Positions 50,957 through 64,000 are shown, counted from the first letter of the stretch. The stretch: DNA of 64,000 nucleotides from Psychrobacillus sp. FSL K6-2836 (GCF_038003085.1 NZ_JBBOOM010000001.1:124001-188000), one strand, 5' to 3'. Notes: generated from the sequence alone by a model not told the origin. Translations and numbers: made by a program.

Positions 50957-50965
50957 ATTTGCAAG

Positions 50966-51203
50966 GAGGCTGGGACAGAACCCCAAAACAGCATTTTTCT
51001 CTGTGAGAAAAATGCTGTTTTTTTGCTGTTAACAAAATTGATTTCCATTCCAGGGACGCTTTCCACGGGCGTGGCCTGAGCCTGTAGTCTCAGGCGCCAC
51101 GCTATTCACGTAGGAGTCGCCACTCCATTCCAATCAATTTTATTAAATATCCATTATTTAGTAAAGGTTTCTCCTTAAAAATTTCTACTTCTGTCCCAGC
51201 CTC
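50966..51203 (+). repeat. Interspersed repeat family B, copy 1
   Basis: A 238-bp element with terminal inverted repeats GAGGCTGGGACAGAA ... TTCTGTCCCAGCCTC. Inside: a terminator hairpin (CAGCATTTTTCTC-tgt-GAGAAAAATGCTG plus T7) and a GC-rich core (GGGACGCTTTCCACGGGCG ... GAGTCGCCACTCCATTCC). Near-identical at 56104 and, reversed, at 63061. Between convergent genes. Confidence 0.92.
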
Positions 51204-51216
51204 TTCTATGCTGAAA

Positions 51217-54076: not shown

Positions 54077-54853
54077 TTAATATATATCTACTCTACGGTC
54101 TTTAAATATAGGAATTCTCTTTCTTACTTCTTCCACTTCCTCTATATTGATATCTACTAATCCGATTGTTTCTTCATCGGCTCCAATCCAAAGAACCTCT
54201 CCCCATGGTGCAATTACCATTGAGTTTCCGTTAAATGAATTATTAGGATCGTCTCCAACTCGGTTAACTGCAACGATGAAGCATTGATTTTCAATTGCTC
54301 GAGCCTGTAATAAGATTTTCCAATGATCAACTCTAGTTGCTGGCCATTGTGCAGGTACAAAAATTACTTTCGCTCCAGCCAATGAATGCATCCGGAACCA
54401 CTCTGGAAAGCGTAAATCATAACAAATAACGCCACCCATTTCGACATCATTCAGGGTGAATATATTTTTGTTCGATCCTGCTGCTAAATAAAGATGTTCA
54501 TCCATTAATTTAAATAAATGAGCTTTGTCATATTCTGCAATCAGCTCTCCAGTATTATTTACGATGTACATTGTATTAAAGAAATGATTATCTTTTTTCG
54601 TTGAAACTGATCCACCAATAATATGAATCTGTAACTCTTTTGCTAACCCCGTCAAGAGATTTTTGGTTTCTTCCCCGTTTATATCAGCTATTTCTTCAAG
54701 ATGTGTTAAATCATAACCAGTATTCCACATTTCAGGCAGTACAACGATTTCTGCATTTAACATCGCCGCTTTTCGAATCTTCTCTTCCACTTTTCTAAAA
54801 TTTTCTTTTGGATTCCCAAAAGCTATATTTAACTGGACACAAGCAATCCTCAT
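54077..54853 (-). CDS. mtnU: Nitrilase-superfamily omega-amidase (MtnU-like)
   Basis: A 258-residue carbon-nitrogen hydrolase with the Glu-Lys-Cys triad: Glu41 (VVLPEMWNTGY), Lys110 (AEYDKAHLF) and Cys144 (GVICYDLRFPEWF). Omega-amidases split alpha-ketoglutaramate or ketosuccinamate, the by-product when a glutamine-type donor feeds a transaminase. It is divergent from an MtnE-type aminotransferase gene, as mtnU lies beside mtnE in Bacillus, so it probably drives that transamination. Confidence 0.88.
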   Translation of the reverse strand: MRIACVQLNIAFGNPKENFRKVEEKIRKAAMLNAEIVVLPEMWNTGYDLTHLEEIADINGEETKNLLTGLAKELQIHIIGGSVSTKKDNHFFNTMYIVNNTGELIAEYDKAHLFKLMDEHLYLAAGSNKNIFTLNDVEMGGVICYDLRFPEWFRMHSLAGAKVIFVPAQWPATRVDHWKILLQARAIENQCFIVAVNRVGDDPNNSFNGNSMVIAPWGEVLWIGADEETIGLVDINIEEVEEVRKRIPIFKDRRVDIY

Positions 54854-54937: not shown

Positions 54938-56101
54938 ATGGAATTTTCAAACCGTTTAAAAAGTCTACCTTCGCAGTTTTTTGCTACACTAGTAAAAAAA
55001 GTAGGAGAAGCAGTTCTAGAAGGTAGAGATGTGATTAATTTAGGACAGGGTAATCCTGATCAGCCTACCCCCCCTCATATTGTACAAGCACTGCAAGAAG
55101 CTGCTGCTAATCCACTAAATCATAAGTATAGTCCATTTCGTGGAACTGGGGATTTTAAAAAAGCTGCAGCCAATTTCTATAAACGAGAATATAATGTGGA
55201 CATTGATCCTGAAACGGAAGTGGCAATTTTATTTGGAACTAAAATTGGTTTAGTCGAGCTTCCGTTAGCACTGATGAATGAAAATGATTTAATGCTTCTT
55301 CCAGACCCTGGCTATCCTGATTATTTGTCAGGGGTGGGACTTGCAAATGTTGAGTTTAACACGATGCCATTAATCGAGGAAAATAATTTCCTACCTGATT
55401 ACAGCTCTTTAACGGAGGAGCAAAAACAAAAAGCCAAACTGATGTATTTGAATTATCCTAATAACCCTACTGGGGCAATTGCTACTTTAGACTTTTTCCA
55501 AGAGACTGTTACGTTAGCGAAAGAGACTGATATTGCTATTGTTCATGATTTTGCATATGGAGGAATCGGATTTGATGACGTGAAGCCAGTAAGTTTTTTA
55601 CAGGCAGAAGGTGCGAAAGAAGTTGGCATAGAGATGTATACTCTATCCAAAACGTATAATATGGCCGGCTGGAGAGTTGGTTTTGCTGTAGGAAATGCTA
55701 AAATTATTGAAGCTATTAATATAATTCAAGACCATTTATTTGTTAGTCTTTTCCCTGCTATTCAAGACGCTGCCACTGCTGCGTTAAATGAAAGTCAGGA
55801 ATGTGTAGAAGAATTAGTGAATTTATATGAAGGTAGAAGAAATGCCCTAATCGAATCTTGCAACAGTATTGGCTGGCGGGTAAAGGCACCCAAAGGTTCC
55901 TTCTTCGCATGGTTACCTGTACCCAATAATTATACAAGTGAAGCTTTTGCAGATTTACTCTTGAAAGAAGCAGACGTAGCTGTTGCTGCCGGTAATGGAT
56001 TTGGTACTTACGGCGAAGGATATGTTCGAGTTGGTCTTTTAGTCGATGAAGAACGTTTGAAAGAAGCAATTACACGTATTGGAAAACTGAATTTATTTTA
56101 A
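54938..56101 (+). CDS. mtnE: Aminotransferase MtnE (methionine salvage)
   Basis: A 387-residue PLP-dependent fold-type I aminotransferase closely matching B. subtilis MtnE (YkrV): VINLGQGNPDQPTP, LPDPGYPDY, LMYLNYPNNPTGA, and the PLP lysine Lys238 in YTLSKTYNMAGWRVGFAVG. It converts 2-keto-4-methylthiobutyrate to methionine, the last step of 5'-methylthioadenosine recycling. No mtnKABD are in the window. Repeat B2 starts two bases after its stop. Confidence 0.93.
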   Translation: MEFSNRLKSLPSQFFATLVKKVGEAVLEGRDVINLGQGNPDQPTPPHIVQALQEAAANPLNHKYSPFRGTGDFKKAAANFYKREYNVDIDPETEVAILFGTKIGLVELPLALMNENDLMLLPDPGYPDYLSGVGLANVEFNTMPLIEENNFLPDYSSLTEEQKQKAKLMYLNYPNNPTGAIATLDFFQETVTLAKETDIAIVHDFAYGGIGFDDVKPVSFLQAEGAKEVGIEMYTLSKTYNMAGWRVGFAVGNAKIIEAINIIQDHLFVSLFPAIQDAATAALNESQECVEELVNLYEGRRNALIESCNSIGWRVKAPKGSFFAWLPVPNNYTSEAFADLLLKEADVAVAAGNGFGTYGEGYVRVGLLVDEERLKEAITRIGKLNLF

Positions 56102-56103
56102 AA

Positions 56104-56347
56104 GAGGCTGGGACAGAACCCCAAAACAGCATTTTTCTCTGTGAGAAAAATGCTGTTTTTTTGCTGTGCACAAAATTGATTTCCATTCCAGGGACGCTTT
56201 CCACTGGCGCGGCCTGAGCCTTTAGTCTCAAGCGTCACCCTATTCCAGTAGGAGTTGCCCCTCCATTTCAATCAATTTTATTAATTATCCATTATTTAGT
56301 AAAGGTTTCTCCTAATCCAATAAAATTTCTACTTCTGTCCCAGTCTC
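56104..56347 (+). repeat. Interspersed repeat family B, copy 2
   Basis: A 244-bp near-copy of 50966-51203 in the same orientation: same terminal inverted repeats (right end with one change, CAGTCTC), the same CAGCATTTTTCTC/GAGAAAAATGCTG terminator and a slightly diverged GC-rich core. Between the convergent mtnE and DUF296 genes. Confidence 0.92.
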
Positions 56348-56357
56348 TGTCATTTAT

Positions 56358-56864
56358 TCACTTAAGTAGCTGGTTAGGTGTTTCTTTATTTGTTTCTACT
56401 GGGTAAAACTGATTCGCACCTGTTTCTTCGTCAAACTGTCTTCGAAACTCCATTTCCATAGTTTCAGCTAATACTAGGTCTACTGTAATAACAGGATTTT
56501 CGCCTTTTATAAAATGACCACCAAAAATATTACCATTTTGGTCACATATCGAGCCGTGAAAATGTGTTTCAAACTGCCCATCTCTTTGGCATACAACCCC
56601 TGTTCCTTGCAAAAATTCAATTGGTCCCTCTTTTACAATAAGATTATTGTAGCCTACACCTATAGGCGAATCTTCGTTTGGGATCAAATAAACAAATCCA
56701 CTTCTTTGAAAACTACCAAAGCAGCTAAGAATAGTAGCGGAACTAATTCCATTTGTTTTACACAACTCCTCTATCCCTTCTAGTAGGTCAGTTCCATAAA
56801 CCAAACGTGCACCTACAACCTTCCCTAGCTGTCCTACCGCAAAATTTACTCTAATTTTTGACAA
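56358..56864 (-). CDS. PCC/DUF296 domain protein
   Basis: A 168-residue protein of the plants-and-prokaryotes conserved domain: ATILSCFGSFQRSGFVYL, EGPIEFLQGTGVVC, FETHFHGSICDQNGNIFGGHF (the His cluster that may hold a metal) and VLAETMEMEF. Cytoplasmic, function unknown in bacteria. Alone; its upstream region is shared with the divergent S-box promoter. Confidence 0.85.
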   Translation of the reverse strand: MSKIRVNFAVGQLGKVVGARLVYGTDLLEGIEELCKTNGISSATILSCFGSFQRSGFVYLIPNEDSPIGVGYNNLIVKEGPIEFLQGTGVVCQRDGQFETHFHGSICDQNGNIFGGHFIKGENPVITVDLVLAETMEMEFRRQFDEETGANQFYPVETNKETPNQLLK

Positions 56865-56950: not shown

Positions 56951-56979
56951 TTGACTTTCATAAGTTGATGTAGTAAATT
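56951..56979 (+). promoter_or_regulatory. Promoter of the S-box operon
   Basis: TTGACT, 17-base spacer, TAAATT, about 36 bases before the riboswitch. Confidence 0.65.
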
Positions 56980-57014: not shown

Positions 57015-57134
57015 TATCTCTTATCAAGAGTAGCTGAGGGACTGGCCCGATGAAGCTCGGCAACCATCCACATACTAACAGTATGTGGAAAGGTGCTAAA
57101 TCCTGCAAAACATTTTGTTTTGATAGATAAGAGA
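57015..57134 (+). promoter_or_regulatory. SAM-I (S-box) riboswitch
   Basis: Classic SAM-I core: CTCTTATC and GATAAGAG form P1; AGAGTAGCTGAGGGA, CTGGCCCGATGAAGC, CGGCAACC and AAGGTGCTAAATCC are the conserved junction and kink-turn parts, with a variable ATACTAACAGTAT arm. S-adenosylmethionine binding stabilises P1 and allows the following terminator to form, turning the methionine operon off. Confidence 0.95.
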
Positions 57135-57152
57135 GGACAAACGTATATTTGC

Positions 57153-57186
57153 GCCTCTCTTTCTAATGGAAGAGAGGCTTTTATAT
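57153..57186 (+). terminator. S-box expression-platform terminator
   Basis: GCCTCTCT-ttctaatgga-AGAGAGGC-TTTTATATTT. The 5' arm can instead pair with AGAGAGG at the end of P1, the antiterminator. Confidence 0.9.
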
Positions 57187-57225
57187 TTATACAACGTTCT
57201 TAATAATTATTCGGAGGAATGAAAA

Positions 57226-58047
57226 ATGAAGAAATTAGGACTATTGTTATCAACTGTACTTTTAACTGGTACTCTTGCTGCTTGTGGAAGCGACGCAGAT
57301 TCACAAACAAAAGCGATTAACGAGGACAAAATAGTAGTAGGTGTAACTGCAGGACCACATGAACAAATTGTGGAAGTGGCTGCAGAAGTTGCAGCTAAAG
57401 ACGGATTAGAAGTCAAACTTCAAGTATTCTCAGATTATATTCTACCTAACACAGCATTATCAGAAGGTGATTTAGATGCGAATAGCTATCAACACGAACC
57501 TTTCCTAGACACGTTTAACGAGGATCACAATACTGACTTAGTACCAGTAGGAAAAACAATACTAAATCCGATGGGTGTATATTCAGAAAAATACAAGTCA
57601 ATTGATGATCTGCCAGACGGTGCAACTTTTGGTTTACCTAATGACCCAACAAACGGTGCTCGTGCTTTATATATCTTAGAAGAAGCTGGTTATATCAAAA
57701 TTAAAGAAGACAAAAGAGAGACAGCTAGTATTTATGACATTGAAGAGAATCCAAAAAACCTAGAATTCATTGAATTAGAAGCTGCTCAAATACCAAAACA
57801 ACTTAGTGAAGTAGATGCAGCTGCTATCAATACAAACTTTGCACTGGCTGCTGGAATCAGTCCAAAAGATGATTCTATTTTACTTGAATCATCAAACTCT
57901 CCTTATGTGAACTATATTGTAGTTCGTGCGGAAAACAAAGATGATCCAACGATTCAAAAGTTGGTAAAAGCATATCAATCTGAAGAAGTAAGAAAATTCA
58001 TCGAAGAAGAGTTTAAAGGTTCTGTATTAGCAAGCTGGGACGAATAA
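57226..58047 (+). CDS. metQ: Methionine ABC transporter binding lipoprotein MetQ
   Basis: A 273-residue NlpA-type lipoprotein: signal with lipobox LAAC (about 17-20), then IVVGVTAGPHEQI, GDLDANSYQHEPFL, FGLPNDPTNGARALYIL and EVDAAAINTNFALAAG, the methionine-binding folds. It delivers D- or L-methionine to MetNI. First gene of the S-box operon (metQ-metN-metI rather than the metNPQ order of B. subtilis). Ribosome site CGGAGG. Confidence 0.95.
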   Translation: MKKLGLLLSTVLLTGTLAACGSDADSQTKAINEDKIVVGVTAGPHEQIVEVAAEVAAKDGLEVKLQVFSDYILPNTALSEGDLDANSYQHEPFLDTFNEDHNTDLVPVGKTILNPMGVYSEKYKSIDDLPDGATFGLPNDPTNGARALYILEEAGYIKIKEDKRETASIYDIEENPKNLEFIELEAAQIPKQLSEVDAAAINTNFALAAGISPKDDSILLESSNSPYVNYIVVRAENKDDPTIQKLVKAYQSEEVRKFIEEEFKGSVLASWDE

Positions 58048-58055
58048 TGGACTTG

Positions 58056-58087
58056 AAAACGTTACCGACTTCGGTAGCGTTTTCTTT
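58056..58087 (+). terminator. Intercistronic hairpin between metQ and metN
   Basis: AAAACGTTACCGA-ctt-TCGGTAGCGTTTTCTTT. Probably a leaky terminator or mRNA-end stabiliser that makes binding protein exceed the pump components. Confidence 0.7.
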
Positions 58088-58104
58088 AGAAAGGAAGATA
58101 GTAA

Positions 58105-59130
58105 ATGATTATATTAGAAAATGTCTCGAAAGAGTTTAATAGCAAAAGTGGAACAGTAAAAGCAGTAAAGCAAGTGAACATTCAGGTAAATAAAGGAGAA
58201 ATCCACGGTGTCATTGGATATAGTGGTGCTGGTAAAAGTACCCTGATTCGATGCGTAAATTTACTTGAACAGCCAACGGAAGGGAAAGTTTTCATAAACG
58301 GAGTAGAACTTACTTCCCTTCCCTTTCCTAAACTGCGTGAAACCCGCAATAAAATCGGCATGATATTTCAAGGATTTAATCTATTAAAAACGGCTACTGT
58401 TTATGATAATATCGCCATTCCACTAAAGCTACTTGGCTATAATAAAGAGCAAGTAAAAAAACGTGTGGAACAATATTTGGAAATAGTTGGATTGACTGAC
58501 AAACATACGAACTACCCTAACCAGTTATCTGGTGGTCAAAAGCAGCGTGTCGCCATTGCCCGTGCACTAGCGCAGGAACCAGAAGTTTTGCTTAGTGATG
58601 AAGCAACAAGCGCACTTGACCCGGAAACAACTGATTCCATCTTGGATTTGCTTCTAAAGATAAATCGGGAATTAGGAATCACTATTCTATTAATCACCCA
58701 TGAAATGAATGTCATTCAAAAAATTTGTGATCATGTATATGTCATGGAAAATGGAGAAATTGTTGAACAAAATACAGCCATTAATCTTTTCACAAAACCT
58801 AACCACCCTACTACTAAAAAGTTTTTAAATACAATTAGTCAGCGTAATTTATCTTCCTCATTGATTTCTCAACTAAATGTTACGGGTGCGGTTACTCGCT
58901 TAACATTTGTCGGGGAAAGCACTGGAAAACCATTATTAGCTGAAGTTAGTCAGAAATTTAATGTCCAGCCTAATATTTTAACTGCCAATATTATTGAATT
59001 GAAAAATGGCATTGTTGGAAATATAGTCGTTCACTTAATAGGCGACAAAGAACAGGTTAGAAATGCTATCCACTATTTAGAATCACAAGGTGTAGCAACA
59101 GAAGAACTGGAGGGACAATCACATGAGTAG
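58105..59130 (+). CDS. metN: Methionine ABC transporter ATPase MetN
   Basis: A 341-residue ATPase: Walker A GYSGAGKST, signature QLSGGQKQRVAIARAL, Walker B VLLSDEATSALDP, and a C-terminal ACT-like domain (about 265-340; ANIIELKNGIVGNIVVHL) that in MetN binds methionine and inhibits the pump when the cell is full. Overlaps metI by eight bases. Confidence 0.95.
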   Translation: MIILENVSKEFNSKSGTVKAVKQVNIQVNKGEIHGVIGYSGAGKSTLIRCVNLLEQPTEGKVFINGVELTSLPFPKLRETRNKIGMIFQGFNLLKTATVYDNIAIPLKLLGYNKEQVKKRVEQYLEIVGLTDKHTNYPNQLSGGQKQRVAIARALAQEPEVLLSDEATSALDPETTDSILDLLLKINRELGITILLITHEMNVIQKICDHVYVMENGEIVEQNTAINLFTKPNHPTTKKFLNTISQRNLSSSLISQLNVTGAVTRLTFVGESTGKPLLAEVSQKFNVQPNILTANIIELKNGIVGNIVVHLIGDKEQVRNAIHYLESQGVATEELEGQSHE

Positions 59131-59794
59131 AATTGATCAATTTATCGAACAATGGCTGCCGATTATCGGCGAATCTGTTGTACAAACATTTCAAATGGTT
59201 GGTATTTCTCTCTTTTTCTCAGTATTAATAGGGATTCCATTAGGTATTTTAATCGTACTAACTAGACCTGGGCAGGCATTTGATAACAAAATTATTTATC
59301 AATTTAGTAATTTAATCATTAATATTGTACGCTCAGTTCCTTTCATCATTTTACTTTTTTTCATACTACCCTTTACAAAGTTGATAGTTGGAACATCTAT
59401 TGGTGTAAAAGGTGTTATTGTTCCATTAGTAATTTATTCTGCACCTTATATCGCACGTCTAATGGAGTCAGCTTTACTAGAAGTGGAAAATGGAGTAATT
59501 GAGGCATATACCGCAATGGGTATTAGTACACGCGCCATCATTTGGAATGTATTACTTCGAGAAGCTCGCCCTTCTATTATTTTAGGATTAACCATTTCAA
59601 CAGTCAGTTTAATCGGTGCTACAGCAATGGCTGGTATGGTTGGAGCAGGTGGTTTAGGTGACGTAGCATATCGTTTCGGTCACTTAAGATACGAAGTAGA
59701 CGTGATGTATGCGACTGTATTTATATTGATCATCCTTGTACAAAGTATCCAATCTATCGGAAACCGTATCGCAGCTAGTATTAAAAAAGATTAA
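59123..59794 (+). CDS. metI: Methionine ABC permease MetI
   Basis: A 223-residue permease with five or six helices; GESVVQTFQMVGISLFFS near the start, and the EAA loop EVENGVIEAYTAMGIS contacting MetN, then GAGGLGDVAYRFG. Also called MetP. Fifteen bases upstream of the crotonase gene. Confidence 0.95.
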   Translation: MSRIDQFIEQWLPIIGESVVQTFQMVGISLFFSVLIGIPLGILIVLTRPGQAFDNKIIYQFSNLIINIVRSVPFIILLFFILPFTKLIVGTSIGVKGVIVPLVIYSAPYIARLMESALLEVENGVIEAYTAMGISTRAIIWNVLLREARPSIILGLTISTVSLIGATAMAGMVGAGGLGDVAYRFGHLRYEVDVMYATVFILIILVQSIQSIGNRIAASIKKD

Positions 59795-59808
59795 TAGGAG
59801 GCTCCAAA

Positions 59809-60585
59809 ATGACAAATCTATTATATGTAGAGCGCAATGGTTCTATTGCGACGCTTGTCTTTAATCGAGCGGATAAGAAGAATTCATTCTCCCTGGCTAT
59901 GTTTAAGCAATTAGGTGAATTATTAAGTGAACTGGAGAAAGATCAGCAAGTTAAACTTTTAATACTTAAAGGAGCGGATGAAACTGCATTCTCCTCTGGT
60001 GCCGATATAACAGAGTTTCTAGAAAATCGCTTCTCTTCCCAAAAAGCAAAGGATTATAACGATGCAACACTTGAATCTATTGAAAAATTATATCGTTTCC
60101 CTAAACCTACCATTGCTCTTATTAAGACGTTAGCTATTGGGGGTGGATTGGAGCTTGCTAATTCCTGCGACTTCCGATTCGCATCTTCGGGTAGTAAACT
60201 TGGTATCACCGCTGCAAACATAGGCATTATTTATAATCTTGTTAGTACAAAACGGTTAGTAAATCTCATCGGAACTACAAAAGCAAAAGAGTTATTATAT
60301 ACAGCAAAACTAATCACTGCTGAAGAAGGACAAGAAATCGGCTTAATCGACTATATTTATCCCATGGAAGATTTAGAGAAAAAATGTCTCGAGTTTGCCA
60401 ATAAAATTATTCGTAAGTCTTCCGTTGCTAATAACGGTATTAAACAAGTAATTCAAGCAATTATTGATGGCGATAATGAAGAAACAAAAGAAATTGAGGA
60501 GCTTATCTTAGAGTCCTTTAGCTCCGATGACTATAAAGAAGGCATCCAAGCATTTTTAGAAAAAAGAAAACCAAATTTCTCATAA
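59809..60585 (+). CDS. Crotonase-fold protein (enoyl-CoA hydratase/isomerase family)
   Basis: A 258-residue acyl-CoA enzyme. Oxyanion-hole residues are AFSSGADITEF (about 60-70) and IGGGLELANSCDF (110-122). The first catalytic Glu position is kept (Glu115), but the second, usually Glu in a PExxLG motif, is Ala here (ITAANIGIIYNLVSTKRL, about 133-150). A simple hydratase would keep both, so the reaction may be isomerisation, hydrolysis or decarboxylation. Ribosome site AGGAGG. Fifteen bases after metI, in the S-box transcript. Confidence 0.85.
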   Translation: MTNLLYVERNGSIATLVFNRADKKNSFSLAMFKQLGELLSELEKDQQVKLLILKGADETAFSSGADITEFLENRFSSQKAKDYNDATLESIEKLYRFPKPTIALIKTLAIGGGLELANSCDFRFASSGSKLGITAANIGIIYNLVSTKRLVNLIGTTKAKELLYTAKLITAEEGQEIGLIDYIYPMEDLEKKCLEFANKIIRKSSVANNGIKQVIQAIIDGDNEETKEIEELILESFSSDDYKEGIQAFLEKRKPNFS

Positions 60586-60597
60586 GAGGTGTTCTAT

Positions 60598-61734
60598 ATG
60601 TCCACTAATGATTTATTATTAAAAAATATTGAGTCAAACGTCCATTATCCAATTAATTTTGCCGAATTAGAAGGAACGGCGAAACGAGCATTACAACCTG
60701 GTCCGTTTGGGTATATTCGTTCTTCTGCTGGTGGTGAAGAAACCTATAAAAAAAATACAGATTCTTTTTTAAAGTATTCGATTATCCCCCGTTTTTTAAC
60801 GGATGTATCGACTTTAAATACAGAAGTAACAATTTTAGGACATACATATCCCCATCCCCTTTTCATAGCTCCTGTTGGGGTAAATAAAATCGCCCATGAA
60901 GATGGCGAATTAGCGGTATCTAAAGCAGCTGCAAAATTTGAATTTCCTTATATCCAAAGCACGGTGTCTAGCTATTCTATTGAAGAAATTGCTGCAGAAA
61001 CAAAAGGTAGTTCAAAATGGTTCCAATTATATTGGTCCTCTCAAAATAAAGAAATCTCCTTTAGTATGGTAAAAAGAGCTGAGGCTGCTGGCTATGAAGC
61101 AATTGTAGTAACCGTTGATACAACGATGCTTGGTTGGCGAGAGGAAGATGTTCGTAATCAATACTCTCCATTAAAACAAGGATTTGGACAAGGAAACTAT
61201 GCATCAGATCCAGTATTCATGGCATCGCTTAGCGATCATTCTCAAGAAACCATCGTTAATAATATTATAGAAAATATATACCATCCTACTTTAAATTGGT
61301 CGAATATTTCAGAGTTACGCGAGCATACAACTTTACCGATTTTGATAAAGGGTATACTTCATCCTGAGGACGCTAAACTTGCCATAGAAAAAGGATTAGA
61401 TGGAGTAATCGTTTCTAACCACGGAGGTCGTCAATTAGATGGTGTAATTGCGAGCATCGATGCCCTTCCAGAAGTAGTTCGAGTTGTAAATGGTCGAATT
61501 CCTGTTTTATTTGATAGTGGAATAAGAAGAGGTTCTGACGCAGTAAAGGCTTTAGCACTTGGTGCAACTGCAGTCTGTATAGGCCGTCCAGTAATTTGGG
61601 GTTTAGCTGCTGGAGGTCAAGAAGGTGTAGAACGTGTTTTAGAGAATTTCCTACAAGAGACCAGAGTTTCCATTTCCTTGAGTGGTGCTCGTAATTTAGA
61701 GGAAGTAAAGAAACTTCAGCTATTAAAAGATTAA
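60598..61734 (+). CDS. FMN-dependent 2-hydroxyacid oxidase (lactate 2-monooxygenase-like)
   Basis: A 378-residue TIM-barrel flavoenzyme oxidising an L-2-hydroxy acid. Active-site residues: PLFIAPVGVNKIAH (FMN), Lys251 (PILIKGILH), His275 and Arg278 (VSNHGGRQLDG), and the FMN-phosphate loop FDSGIRRGSD. The N-terminus and TMLGWREEDVRNQY fit the lactate-monooxygenase branch, but substrate is not set by motif. ATG 60598 is chosen (AAGAGGTG six bases upstream). Twelve bases after the crotonase gene. Confidence 0.87.
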   Translation: MSTNDLLLKNIESNVHYPINFAELEGTAKRALQPGPFGYIRSSAGGEETYKKNTDSFLKYSIIPRFLTDVSTLNTEVTILGHTYPHPLFIAPVGVNKIAHEDGELAVSKAAAKFEFPYIQSTVSSYSIEEIAAETKGSSKWFQLYWSSQNKEISFSMVKRAEAAGYEAIVVTVDTTMLGWREEDVRNQYSPLKQGFGQGNYASDPVFMASLSDHSQETIVNNIIENIYHPTLNWSNISELREHTTLPILIKGILHPEDAKLAIEKGLDGVIVSNHGGRQLDGVIASIDALPEVVRVVNGRIPVLFDSGIRRGSDAVKALALGATAVCIGRPVIWGLAAGGQEGVERVLENFLQETRVSISLSGARNLEEVKKLQLLKD

Positions 61735-61760
61735 GGGAAAAATAAGGTGGTAGATAGACG

Positions 61761-62954
61761 ATGGAACAAGCATTAAAAGGTATGAAAGTACTGGATTTAT
61801 CACAGGTTCTCGCTGGACCCTATTGCACGATGGTTTTAGCAGATATGGGTGCGGATGTTATCAAAGTAGAAAAATACCCAAATGGTGACGACACTAGAAG
61901 CATGGGGCCGTATATAAATGAAGAAAGCTATATGTATATGATGGTAAATCGTAACAAACGCGGAATCTGTCTAAATTTAAAAACAGAACAAGGTTTAGAG
62001 GTATTATATAAACTTATTAAAGAGGCAGATGTTTTTATCGAAAATTATCGTCCAGGTGTTACGAAGAAACTTGGAATTGATTATGATACGTTGAAAGCTT
62101 TAAACCCGGCTTTGATATATTGTTCTATTTCCGGCTATGGTCAAACAGGCCCTTATAAAGATAAGGGTGGGTATGATATTATGGCCCAAGGGCTTTCTGG
62201 GCTGATCGATATGACTGGAGAAAAAGGAGGAAAACCTGTCAAAGTTGGTATTGCTATACATGATATTGCAGCAGCACAAACGGCCATCCAATCTATTTTA
62301 TCCGCCTATATTTATCGCCTCAAAAAAGGCACGGGACAATATATTGATGTCTCTTTAGTAGATTCGGGTCTAGCATGGACTGTGTGGGAAGCTGCAGCTT
62401 ATTTTGGTAAAGGTGAAGTACCCCAAAGAAATGGCACGGCACATCGTGTTTCTGCACCCTACCAAGGCTATAAAACAAAGGATGGATTTATCCTTATTGG
62501 TGCAGGAAATCAGAGGCTTTGGGAAAAGTTTTGCCTACATGTTGTCCAAAAACCAGAATGGCTTACAGATGAACGATTTTTAACAAATAGTATTCGAGCA
62601 AAAAATGCTAGTCAACTTGAGGTTGAAATAGAGGAAGTTTTCGGAGAACATCCCTCCTCATTCTGGCTAGAGTTATTAGATGCTGGCGGCGTCCCTTCTG
62701 GACCTATCTATTCGTATGATCAAACACTGAATGATGAACATATTTTATCGAGAGATATGATATTAGATTACGAGCATCCTGTAGCAGGAGCAATGAAAAC
62801 TCTAGGGTTTCCGGCTAAATTCTCCGAAACACCCGGACAATTCAAATATGCCGCCCCACTTCTTGGTCAGCATAACAAAGAAATACTTACGGAGCTTGGA
62901 TACACAGAAGACGAAGTACATACATTCATGTCTGATAAAGTTTTGAATGGATAA
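61761..62954 (+). CDS. Type III CoA-transferase (CaiB/BaiF family)
   Basis: A 397-residue enzyme moving CoA between carboxylic acids. LDLSQVLAGPYCTMVLADMGA at the N-terminus, ENYRPGVTKKLG, CSISGYGQTGPY, and the catalytic Asp168 (KVGIAIHDIAAAQ). The intertwined dimer fold has a C-terminal large-domain tail with VPSGPIYS. Last gene after the crotonase and 2-hydroxyacid oxidase genes; together a three-enzyme CoA cassette on the methionine-regulated transcript. Acid substrate unknown. Confidence 0.9.
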   Translation: MEQALKGMKVLDLSQVLAGPYCTMVLADMGADVIKVEKYPNGDDTRSMGPYINEESYMYMMVNRNKRGICLNLKTEQGLEVLYKLIKEADVFIENYRPGVTKKLGIDYDTLKALNPALIYCSISGYGQTGPYKDKGGYDIMAQGLSGLIDMTGEKGGKPVKVGIAIHDIAAAQTAIQSILSAYIYRLKKGTGQYIDVSLVDSGLAWTVWEAAAYFGKGEVPQRNGTAHRVSAPYQGYKTKDGFILIGAGNQRLWEKFCLHVVQKPEWLTDERFLTNSIRAKNASQLEVEIEEVFGEHPSSFWLELLDAGGVPSGPIYSYDQTLNDEHILSRDMILDYEHPVAGAMKTLGFPAKFSETPGQFKYAAPLLGQHNKEILTELGYTEDEVHTFMSDKVLNG

Positions 62955-63051: not shown

Positions 63052-63060
63052 ACAAAAAAA

Positions 63061-63305
63061 GAGACTGGGACAGAAGTAGAAATTTTATTGGATAAGGAGA
63101 AACCTTTACTAAATAATGGATATTTAATAAAATTGATTGAAATGGAGGGGCGACTCCTACGGGAATAGCGTGACGCCTGAGACTACAGGCTCAGGCCACG
63201 CCCGTGGAAAGCGTCCCTGGAATGGAAATCAATTTTGTGCACAGCAAAAAAAACAGCATTTTTCTCACAGAGAAAAATGCTGTTTTGGGGTTCTGTCCCA
63301 GCCTC
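63061..63305 (-). repeat. Interspersed repeat family B, copy 3 (inverted)
   Basis: A 245-bp reverse-complement copy of the elements at 50966 and 56104. Ends GAGACTGGGACAGAAG ... TTCTGTCCCAGCCTC; the last base is the first base of the TPR gene stop codon. Its hairpin plus T run faces the minus strand. Between convergent genes. Confidence 0.92.
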
Positions 63306-64000
63306 TAAATTATTGGCTGCAATAATGTCCAAATTACTTTTCCTTCTTCGGGACTATCTGGAGTTATAGCGATAGAATTTGGATATGGTAAAACGGGTGC
63401 TTTTATACGATAATAGTTTGCTACATATGAATTATCATCCATTGCCATTTCATAAGCATCCTGTGTTTCTTTCGAGAAGAAGCTTTTCTTTTTTTCTATT
63501 GTCCAACGGAACCAGCTAAAAAAAGCATTATCTGAATCCTGGTAATGACTCATTAAACTCTCTGCTTCCTCTATTTTGTTTAATGCAATTAATGTAGCAA
63601 CTGCAGGATAACGTGCGCCTTGATGATCAGATGGATTTAATTGTAGAATTTTATTTAATAGATTAAACGCCTCTTTGAATTTTTTCTGCTCAAAACACGA
63701 TATTCCGTATTTAAACAAGGCTCTTAAATAAGGTCTGTTCGGCAAATAACCCCATACAACTTCAAAATTTGGATCAAATTGCTTTTCTCCAATACGTATC
63801 GCTTCTTCGAAATGGGCAGACTGTTCTGTTTCTTCTATATAATCTATTTTTAACAATATCGCATCAACATTTTGTGGATCAAGCTCATAAGCAAGAGAAG
63901 CTAGTCGTCTCTTTTCTATCAAATCAGTAGATATATACGCTTCATACGCATACTTTTGCGATGCTTCTTTATCATTTGCTGGGTTAAATTCTTTGTCTTT
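63305..64000 (-). CDS. Tetratricopeptide-repeat protein, 3' part only
   Basis: The open frame runs off the window edge; 231 residues of the C-terminal part are visible, starting KDKEFNPANDKEAS. TPR-like helix pairs are seen at AYELDPQNVDAILLKIDYIE, LFKYGISCFEQKKFKEAFNL, LLNKILQLNPSDHQGARYPA and ATLIALNKIEEAESLM. It ends with a nonrepeat TLLQPII. Such proteins are scaffolds; partner unknown. An internal TTG at 63922 is not a start, since the frame continues. Confidence 0.8.
   Translation of the reverse strand, partial: KDKEFNPANDKEASQKYAYEAYISTDLIEKRRLASLAYELDPQNVDAILLKIDYIEETEQSAHFEEAIRIGEKQFDPNFEVVWGYLPNRPYLRALFKYGISCFEQKKFKEAFNLLNKILQLNPSDHQGARYPAVATLIALNKIEEAESLMSHYQDSDNAFFSWFRWTIEKKKSFFSKETQDAYEMAMDDNSYVANYYRIKAPVLPYPNSIAITPDSPEEGKVIWTLLQPII

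Follow-up and report, generated by a model that had tools for sequence, protein, structure and literature searches.

A SAM-riboswitch operon of Psychrobacillus that joins a methionine-type importer to two separable enzyme modules

Why should a riboswitch that senses S-adenosylmethionine (SAM) precede not only a methionine-type importer but also a crotonase-fold protein, a 2-hydroxyacid oxidase and a CoA-transferase? This arrangement lies in a 64,000-nucleotide stretch of the Psychrobacillus sp. FSL K6-2836 genome (G000:C1:124001-188000; hereafter the window), where a SAM-I (S-box) riboswitch is followed on the + strand by metQ, metN, metI and genes for a crotonase-fold protein (ECH), a flavin mononucleotide (FMN)-dependent 2-hydroxyacid oxidase (HAOX) and a class III (CaiB/BaiF) CoA-transferase (CaiB). 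The original prediction for this DNA had described such an operon, and Rfam (RF00162) and Pfam bear it out, the six proteins falling within Lipoprotein_9, ABC_tran+NIL, BPD_transp_1, ECH_1, FMN_dh and CoA_transf_3. Indeed, the arrangement is conserved in dozens of genomes and, being kept across several Bacilli families, is far beyond chance. We give about an even chance to the reading that the operon serves to obtain methionine, when SAM is low, from methionine itself and from its non-amino-acid relatives, with HAOX contributing by way of 2-hydroxy-4-methylthiobutyrate (HMTB).

In this model the whole operon would be transcribed at low SAM, while at high SAM transcription would stop at the leader. 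MetQNI would import methionine or a close alpha-substituted analogue, HAOX would use O2 to convert L-HMTB to 4-methylthio-2-oxobutyrate (KMTB), and the neighbouring aminotransferase MtnE would aminate KMTB to methionine. ECH and CaiB would constitute a second, separately acquired module acting on the CoA ester of a related acid, in which CaiB would transfer CoA between acids without ATP. ECH, lacking the water-activating Glu but having an oxyanion hole, one Glu and a Tyr, would carry out enolate chemistry other than hydration, most plausibly either converting a D-hydroxy acid, as its CoA ester, to the L form or expelling methanethiol from 3-methylthiopropionyl-CoA by beta-elimination. A divergently encoded PCC/DUF296-domain protein would be an accessory.

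The leader carries the regulatory part of this model. The aptamer (57018-57133, +) spans model positions 1-108 of 108 and is thus full length, with a score of 96 bits (gathering threshold 44.4; E 7e-22), and S-boxes were found at the same place in relatives both by Rfam and by a search model (R1) built from 15 S-boxes. Upstream lies a promoter-like TTGACT-N17-TAAATT (56951-56979, +), a consensus match only, of a kind that occurs regionally at chance rate. The 3′ strand of P1, which doubles as the antiterminator 5′ arm (AAGAGAGG, 57129-57136, +), forms eight perfect pairs with CCTCTCTT (57154-57161), the 5′ arm of an intrinsic terminator (57153-57178, +) whose 11 bp stem is followed by the T-rich TTTTATATTT; for 57134-57190 the predicted folding energy is -20 kcal/mol (z -4.4). 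Because the P1 3′ strand is complementary to the terminator 5′ arm, antiterminator and terminator are mutually exclusive, and on these predicted pairings the leader is a classic and complete expression platform.

From metI onwards, nothing was found that would break the transcript. As had been predicted, a terminator scan from metI to the end of CaiB returned zero terminator-like sites on the + strand, and promoter matches above chance were likewise absent from that stretch. The intergenic gaps had been put at 15, 12 and 26 bp; the latter two are exact (ECH-HAOX is 12 bp from the ATG of HAOX or 3 bp from an alternative GTG, and HAOX-CaiB is 26 bp), while metI-ECH measures 14 bp. Between metQ and metN there is a strong hairpin with a 13 bp stem (58055-58084, +; z = -4.4). 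In relatives this position is likewise occupied by a stable hairpin, though its sequence differs, and the structure may tune expression of the binding protein.

Comparison across genomes, in which all counts refer to loci actually read (L and G numbers denote the loci and genomes compared), revealed the same operon order in Psychrobacillus, Lysinibacillus, Planococcus, Oceanobacillus, Peribacillus and others. ECH orthologues with identities of roughly 60% and above are found in most genomes of the same genus, in many Lysinibacillus and in a few Planococcus. The divergent PCC gene together with metQ-metN-metI-ECH-HAOX-CaiB was present in 30/30 related Planococcaceae loci with an ECH orthologue, a count that leaves out L052 and L053, whose ECH is only 39-40% identical. 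Carriers among the Bacillaceae include Oceanobacillus polygoni, Bacillus sp. REN16 and Peribacillus alkalitolerans, and in Aquibacillus halophilus the order is metQNI-HAOX-metQ-ECH-CaiB. The check that had been proposed, whether the cassette recurs beside met or mtn genes, came out positive across several Bacilli families.

With model R1, each of 37 distinct cassette genomes, and L177 as well, proved to have an S-box just 5′ of its met genes; the same search found none at ECH or CaiB loci without met genes. The contrary pattern, in which relatives would always keep the cassette beside fatty-acid or lactate genes without an S-box, did not appear: an S-box precedes 38 of 38 distinct ECH-cassette loci tested, full or partial, outside one distant family, f22. 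In f22 (L178-L182), where the operon is whole or partly degraded, R1 detected no S-box, nor did a search of L180-L182 with all of Rfam; another methionine regulator may act in this family.

Are the three enzymes then one pathway, as the original prediction had supposed? The modules turn out to be gained and lost separately. HAOX follows metNI without ECH, CaiB or PCC in 12 loci (L192-L195, L198-L200, L202, L238, L244, L255 and L257), including distant Bacilli families, and all of these except L202 have an S-box upstream. Conversely, ECH-CaiB follows metQ or metQNI without HAOX in L085, L087, L088 and L181, and three of these four genomes have no HAOX homologue anywhere. In Oceanobacillus sojae the modules occupy two operons, S-box-metQ-ECH-CaiB and S-box-metN-metI-HAOX, with mtnE just upstream of the latter. 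ECH and CaiB, for their part, are never apart in met-linked loci save in the broken f22 copy L179. The HAOX tree mixes full, HAOX-only and unlinked loci (13 changes of state, compared with 23.3 when states are shuffled); five or more switches of the linked state are forced by well-supported branches, and some of the changes are losses. We therefore reject an indivisible three-enzyme pathway; the separate occurrences and the interleaved states indicate that the window genes are one combination of two modules on a SAM-controlled methionine transporter.

HAOX (60598-61734, +, from an ATG; the alternative GTG is at 60589) matches PF01070 with 413.9 bits as a member of the FMN-dependent L-2-hydroxyacid oxidase family, and the catalytic Tyr148, Asp177, Lys254, His278 and Arg281 are invariant in 52/52 linked copies. 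mtnE adjoins it in Psychrobacillus, Lysinibacillus and loci L086, L192-L195, L198, L199, L238 and L255. An HcxA/YbdH-like hydroxyacid dehydrogenase lies next to metQ in the HAOX loci L202, L255 and L257 and also by a lone metQ in L204, all such matches scoring below the family's curated cut-off; its presence across cassette genomes is patchy (7/20). In E. coli, hcxA and the methionine transaminase gene ybdL are divergent neighbours; in enterobacteria, according to comparative work on MetJ, ybdH is found together with methionine-salvage genes and has metboxes and MetJ repression in common with mtnE (PMC3228920). Viewed together, the riboswitch and MetJ contexts mean that two unrelated SAM-sensing systems put a hydroxyacid redox enzyme beside KMTB transamination.

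This gene context suggests L-HMTB as the simplest substrate of HAOX, giving KMTB and then methionine via MtnE, and the cross-genome comparison suggests that HAOX gives starving cells access to hydroxy-methionine. The proposal of an HMTB to KMTB to methionine route has thereby gained the support of S-box-metQNI-HAOX operons without CoA genes, often by mtnE and in some cases with an HcxA/YbdH-type gene; SAM control was the right regulatory core of that earlier interpretation, and its hydroxy-acid branch is plausible. Two individual loci are of further note. In L244 a sodium-symporter-like gene, named by eye, stands between the S-box and metQ and is a possible acid importer, and in one genome of the same genus a HAOX with an in-frame stop (L195:8530-9681) lies behind an intact S-box-metQNI, an apparent recent loss.

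The best natural solved relative of HAOX, with engineered tandem constructs set aside, is lactate 2-monooxygenase (PDB 6DVH), and HAOX carries SNHGGRQ as that enzyme does. Gly97, present in 52/52 linked copies, replaces the lactate-oxidase Ala95, as in lactate 2-monooxygenase. An elongated loop 4 is the criterion for lactate 2-monooxygenases (PMC8491902); compared with the HAOX family profile, 6DVH has some nine extra residues there, and loop 4 of HAOX is not elongated, so that we did not file it as a plain lactate 2-monooxygenase. Against the L-lactate oxidase family it scores 275 bits, far below the cut-off of 645.5.

What the importer carries bears on the same question. The window encodes a methionine-type substrate-binding lipoprotein (metQ, 57226-58047, +; Lipoprotein_9), an ABC ATPase with a NIL domain (metN, 58105-59130, +; PF00005 and PF09383), which scores 375.8 against the equivalog TIGR02314, below its cut-off of 499.7, and a permease (metI, 59123-59794, +; BPD_transp_1). 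Alignment with E. coli MetQ indicates that the equivalents of R156, N213 and N238, which hold the alpha-amino/carboxyl group of methionine (PMC6739813), are kept. Import of methionine itself therefore stays likely, and the pocket residues favour methionine or an alpha-substituted analogue, rather than methylthiopropionate, as the probable ligand.

This importer is moreover the second of its kind under S-box control. The whole genome has 11 S-boxes, the others preceding metH (together with a homocysteine methyltransferase-like gene), metA, a metI/metC-type pyridoxal phosphate enzyme operon, metN-metI-metQ, metY-hom, a MetE-like gene, the divergent mtnKA-ABC and mtnWXBD, metK, and a gene of the acyl-CoA-dehydrogenase family that is accompanied by an amino-acid-type ABC transporter (some of these target names were assigned by eye from the protein sequence). 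Since the genome has a separate S-box metN-metI-metQ operon (L057), to whose products the window MetN, MetI and MetQ are 51, 42 and 41% identical, the window MetQNI is a second S-box importer. The acyl-CoA-dehydrogenase-family gene (G000:C1:2567689-2568867; L061:5222-6400, -) is widespread in related bacilli, and its nearest named families are 3-sulfinopropanoyl-CoA desulfinase and SfnB, both far below cut-off. A role for it as the absent DmdC partner of ECH-CaiB is unsupported: genes of this type occur irrespective of ECH-CaiB, being present in 10 of 11 tested genomes without that pair.

What, then, might the second module do? In ECH (59809-60585, +; ECH_1) the first hydratase Glu (rat E144) corresponds to Glu115, found in 39/44 met-linked copies with Asp in the other five, and the second (rat E164) is Ala or Pro in 44/44, Ala135 in the window; the oxyanion glycines are kept. 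Tyr142 aligns with the conserved Tyr of the Y-N-L-V motif of E. coli methylmalonyl-CoA decarboxylase (ScpB) and is present in all 44 met-linked copies and in 18/18 non-met relatives. Against the methylmalonyl-CoA decarboxylase family, ECH scores 157.6 bits, below the cut-off of 257, and where the ScpB AGHD motif has His, it carries Ala; its AlphaFold model is weak (pLDDT 65). A canonical enoyl-CoA hydratase or DmdD was rejected, the second catalytic Glu being absent. CaiB (61761-62954, +; CoA_transf_3) scores 445.7 bits against PF02515 and keeps its catalytic Asp168 in 43/43 copies.

Distant ECH-CaiB pairs adjoin TTT/TRAP transporters, hotdog thioesterases and 2-hydroxyacid dehydrogenases or oxidases. 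The ECH residue pattern and these neighbours make it probable that ECH-CaiB carries out enolate chemistry on CoA esters and was recruited to act on an acid related to methionine. Candidate reactions are inversion of a D-hydroxy acid, thiol elimination from methylthiopropionyl-CoA, or decarboxylation. As to the earlier suggestion that methylthiopropionate is used via its CoA ester, a standard Dmd-type route is not encoded, the operon having neither ligase nor acyl-CoA dehydrogenase and ECH no second catalytic Glu, and a methylthiopropionate branch is only a possibility among several options. In Variovorax, the thiodipropionate pathway shows that handling a thioether acid can require enzymes of the crotonase family (PMC6370202).

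Several points weigh against the HMTB-centred reading. Hydroxyacid oxidases of this family are broad in their in vitro specificity (PMC8491902), unlinked HAOX relatives belonging to the same sequence type occur commonly among Bacilli, and, with Gly where lactate oxidase has Ala, HAOX may perform oxidative decarboxylation. The conserved amino-group pocket of MetQ is such that methionine itself may be the main ligand. The f22 operon, for which no S-box was found, means that SAM control is not universal, and ECH-CaiB pairs outside met operons, with tricarboxylate/TRAP-type transporters and hydroxyacid enzymes, show no visible sulfur link. Finally, Planococcus does not have mtnE next to the operon, and genes of the MtnE type are so common that they have little discriminating value.

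Alternative roles can be weighed against the same observations. One, which we consider unlikely though not strongly so, is that ECH-CaiB supply an L-specific oxidase by turning the CoA ester of D-HMTB, or of another D-2-hydroxy acid, into its L counterpart, in the manner of carnitine CaiB/CaiD. Chemistry at the alpha carbon of a CoA ester needs, at a minimum, a CoA-transferase and a crotonase; ECH has no second hydratase Glu; and related ECH-CaiB clusters elsewhere include 2-hydroxyacid dehydrogenases or oxidases. The presence of ECH-CaiB in genomes without HAOX speaks against inversion as the sole role: G622 and G623, which have S-box-met-ECH-CaiB, no HAOX homologue and no HcxA-like gene that we could find, would have no use for the L form.

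Quite unlikely, in our estimate, is a route through methanethiol. Here HAOX, acting like a lactate 2-monooxygenase, or decarboxylation of KMTB by H2O2 would yield 3-methylthiopropionate; CaiB would make the CoA ester, ECH would eliminate methanethiol, the resulting acryloyl-CoA would pass its CoA to the next acid, and methanethiol with O-acetylhomoserine would give methionine through the S-box-controlled MetY. Gly97 and SNHGGRQ are as in lactate 2-monooxygenase, loss of the second Glu in ECH would be compatible with expulsion of a thiolate instead of water, CaiB and ECH co-occur in met-linked loci, and the genome's S-box regulon includes an O-acetylhomoserine sulfhydrylase. HAOX, however, lacks the elongated loop 4 that marks lactate 2-monooxygenases (PMC8491902), three genomes have ECH-CaiB without any HAOX, and HAOX-only operons beside mtnE have no need of such a route. 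Slightly more doubtful is its second half taken as an ATP-free, two-enzyme sulfur-release cycle, in which CaiB would load 3-methylthiopropionate with CoA from acryloyl-CoA, ECH would expel methanethiol and MetY would make methionine; if true, it would make C-S cleavage of thioether acids a function of SAM riboswitches.

It also seems quite improbable that the enzymes have no sulfur substrate and form a general catabolic set for 2-hydroxyacids or short dicarboxylates, for example by methylmalonate-type CoA ester decarboxylation, which now happens to lie behind metNI. The nearest named families do lean that way, namely lactate oxidase or monooxygenase for HAOX, enoyl-CoA hydratase and methylmalonyl-CoA decarboxylase-like crotonases for ECH, and succinate/glutarate or mesaconate CoA-transferases for CaiB, as do the TTT/TRAP transporters beside ECH-CaiB relatives. 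Yet the order behind the S-box is conserved in several families, two modules are separately tied to the same met transporter, and SAM repression is ill-suited to lactate or malonate use. Very improbable is a cassette expressed mostly from its own promoter with the S-box effectively controlling metQ or metQNI alone: the strong hairpin after metQ in the window and relatives, and the f22 loci that keep all or part of metQNI-ECH(-HAOX)-CaiB without an S-box, would fit, but metI-CaiB has 12-26 bp gaps with no terminator-like site or above-chance promoter, and in minimal S-box-metQ-ECH-CaiB operons the enzymes come directly after metQ.

How does the favoured operon for methionine and its hydroxy analogue compare with known systems? 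The S-box metNIQ and yusCBA operons of Bacillus share the SAM-I riboswitch and terminator before genes for MetN, MetI and MetQ; the window differs in its Q-N-I order, in being a paralogous second importer and in the HAOX and/or ECH-CaiB that follow. MtnE/MtnU salvage and the enterobacterial hcxA(ybdH)-mtnE(ybdL) pair under MetJ resemble it in SAM-dependent repression and in a hydroxyacid redox enzyme beside a methionine aminotransferase (PMC3228920), whereas the window has an FMN oxidase (with an HcxA-like gene in some loci), riboswitch control and an included importer. With FMN L-2-hydroxyacid oxidases and lactate 2-monooxygenase (6DVH), HAOX shares the FMN_dh fold, the catalytic Tyr/Asp/Lys/His/Arg and the monooxygenase-position Gly, but not the monooxygenase's elongated loop 4. 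Carnitine CaiB/CaiD likewise pair a class III CoA-transferase with a crotonase; in contrast to CaiD, ECH has Tyr142, and Ala135 where CaiD has Glu, and the window operon has no ligase or dehydrogenase. E. coli ScpB/ScpC also combine a decarboxylase-type crotonase bearing the Y-N-L-V motif with a CoA-recycling transferase, but ECH lies below the decarboxylase cut-off and has Ala for the AGHD His, and ScpC belongs to a CoA-transferase class other than that of the window CaiB. The Dmd and Variovorax thiodipropionate pathways use CoA activation and crotonases for a thioether acid (PMC6370202); unlike the Dmd route (DmdB ligase, DmdC dehydrogenase, DmdD crotonase), the operon lacks ligase and acyl-CoA dehydrogenase, and its crotonase lacks one catalytic Glu.

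The textbook SAM riboswitch regulon of bacilli would thus be extended by two enzyme modules. The first would tie SAM sensing concretely to the utilisation of hydroxy-methionine, a common animal-feed supplement; the second is a conserved pair of crotonase and CoA-transferase whose active site is non-canonical and for whose class of substrate the regulation gives a strong clue. We could not find a published description of these modules in this regulon, and the literature yielded nothing direct on the operon, on an S-box with a CoA-transferase or on a bacterial HMTB oxidase, most subscription papers being outside the search.

Neighbouring genes complete the picture of the locus. The mtnU and mtnE genes lie upstream as had been claimed, the former encoding a carbon-nitrogen hydrolase (54077-54853, -) and the latter the aminotransferase for KMTB (54938-56101, +). 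MtnE scored above its family cut-off in 14/14 cassette genomes tested, although its presence has little power as a discriminating test, such aminotransferases being common. The PCC/DUF296-domain gene (56358-56864, -) is divergent from the operon and adjoins it only where all three enzymes are present. Its conserved HxH...GGH motif, common to solved bacterial PCC proteins, suggests a metal site rather than DNA binding, and its AlphaFold model is fair (pLDDT 78.5).

Other variants of the operon have neighbours of their own. The metQ-ECH-CaiB operon of Siminovitchia (L088:1971-5252) is divergent from an M20 amidohydrolase gene, with GNAT and MR/MLE-superfamily genes nearby, and a lone S-box metQ in Psychrobacillus soli (L201:29-5142) sits beside M20 and MR/MLE genes. 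The combination of S-box metQ, M20 and MR/MLE resembles N-acyl amino acid racemisation and hints at a possible SAM-controlled route from D- to L-methionine. In Aquibacillus halophilus (L099:76-5072), genes for an SsuC/TauC-like ABC transporter, an acetate-CoA-ligase-like enzyme and homoserine dehydrogenase are directly upstream of the S-box operon, and in Bacillus sp. REN16 a ZTP riboswitch (L090:6358-6435, -) precedes a PGDH/2-hydroxyacid-dehydrogenase-like gene, named by eye, that adjoins the operon.

Finally, the window contains three copies of a repeat of about 250 bp, 92-96% alike (50957-51205, 56095-56348 and, inverted, 63059-63306). Their ends are of the GAGGCTGGGACAGAA type, and they contain a 17-bp hairpin. 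The block from PCC through metQNI and the cassette lies between two of the copies, and one repeat hairpin is the terminator-like site after mtnE. Further upstream is a Bacillaceae-1 RNA (RF01690; 42259-42325, -; 61 bits).

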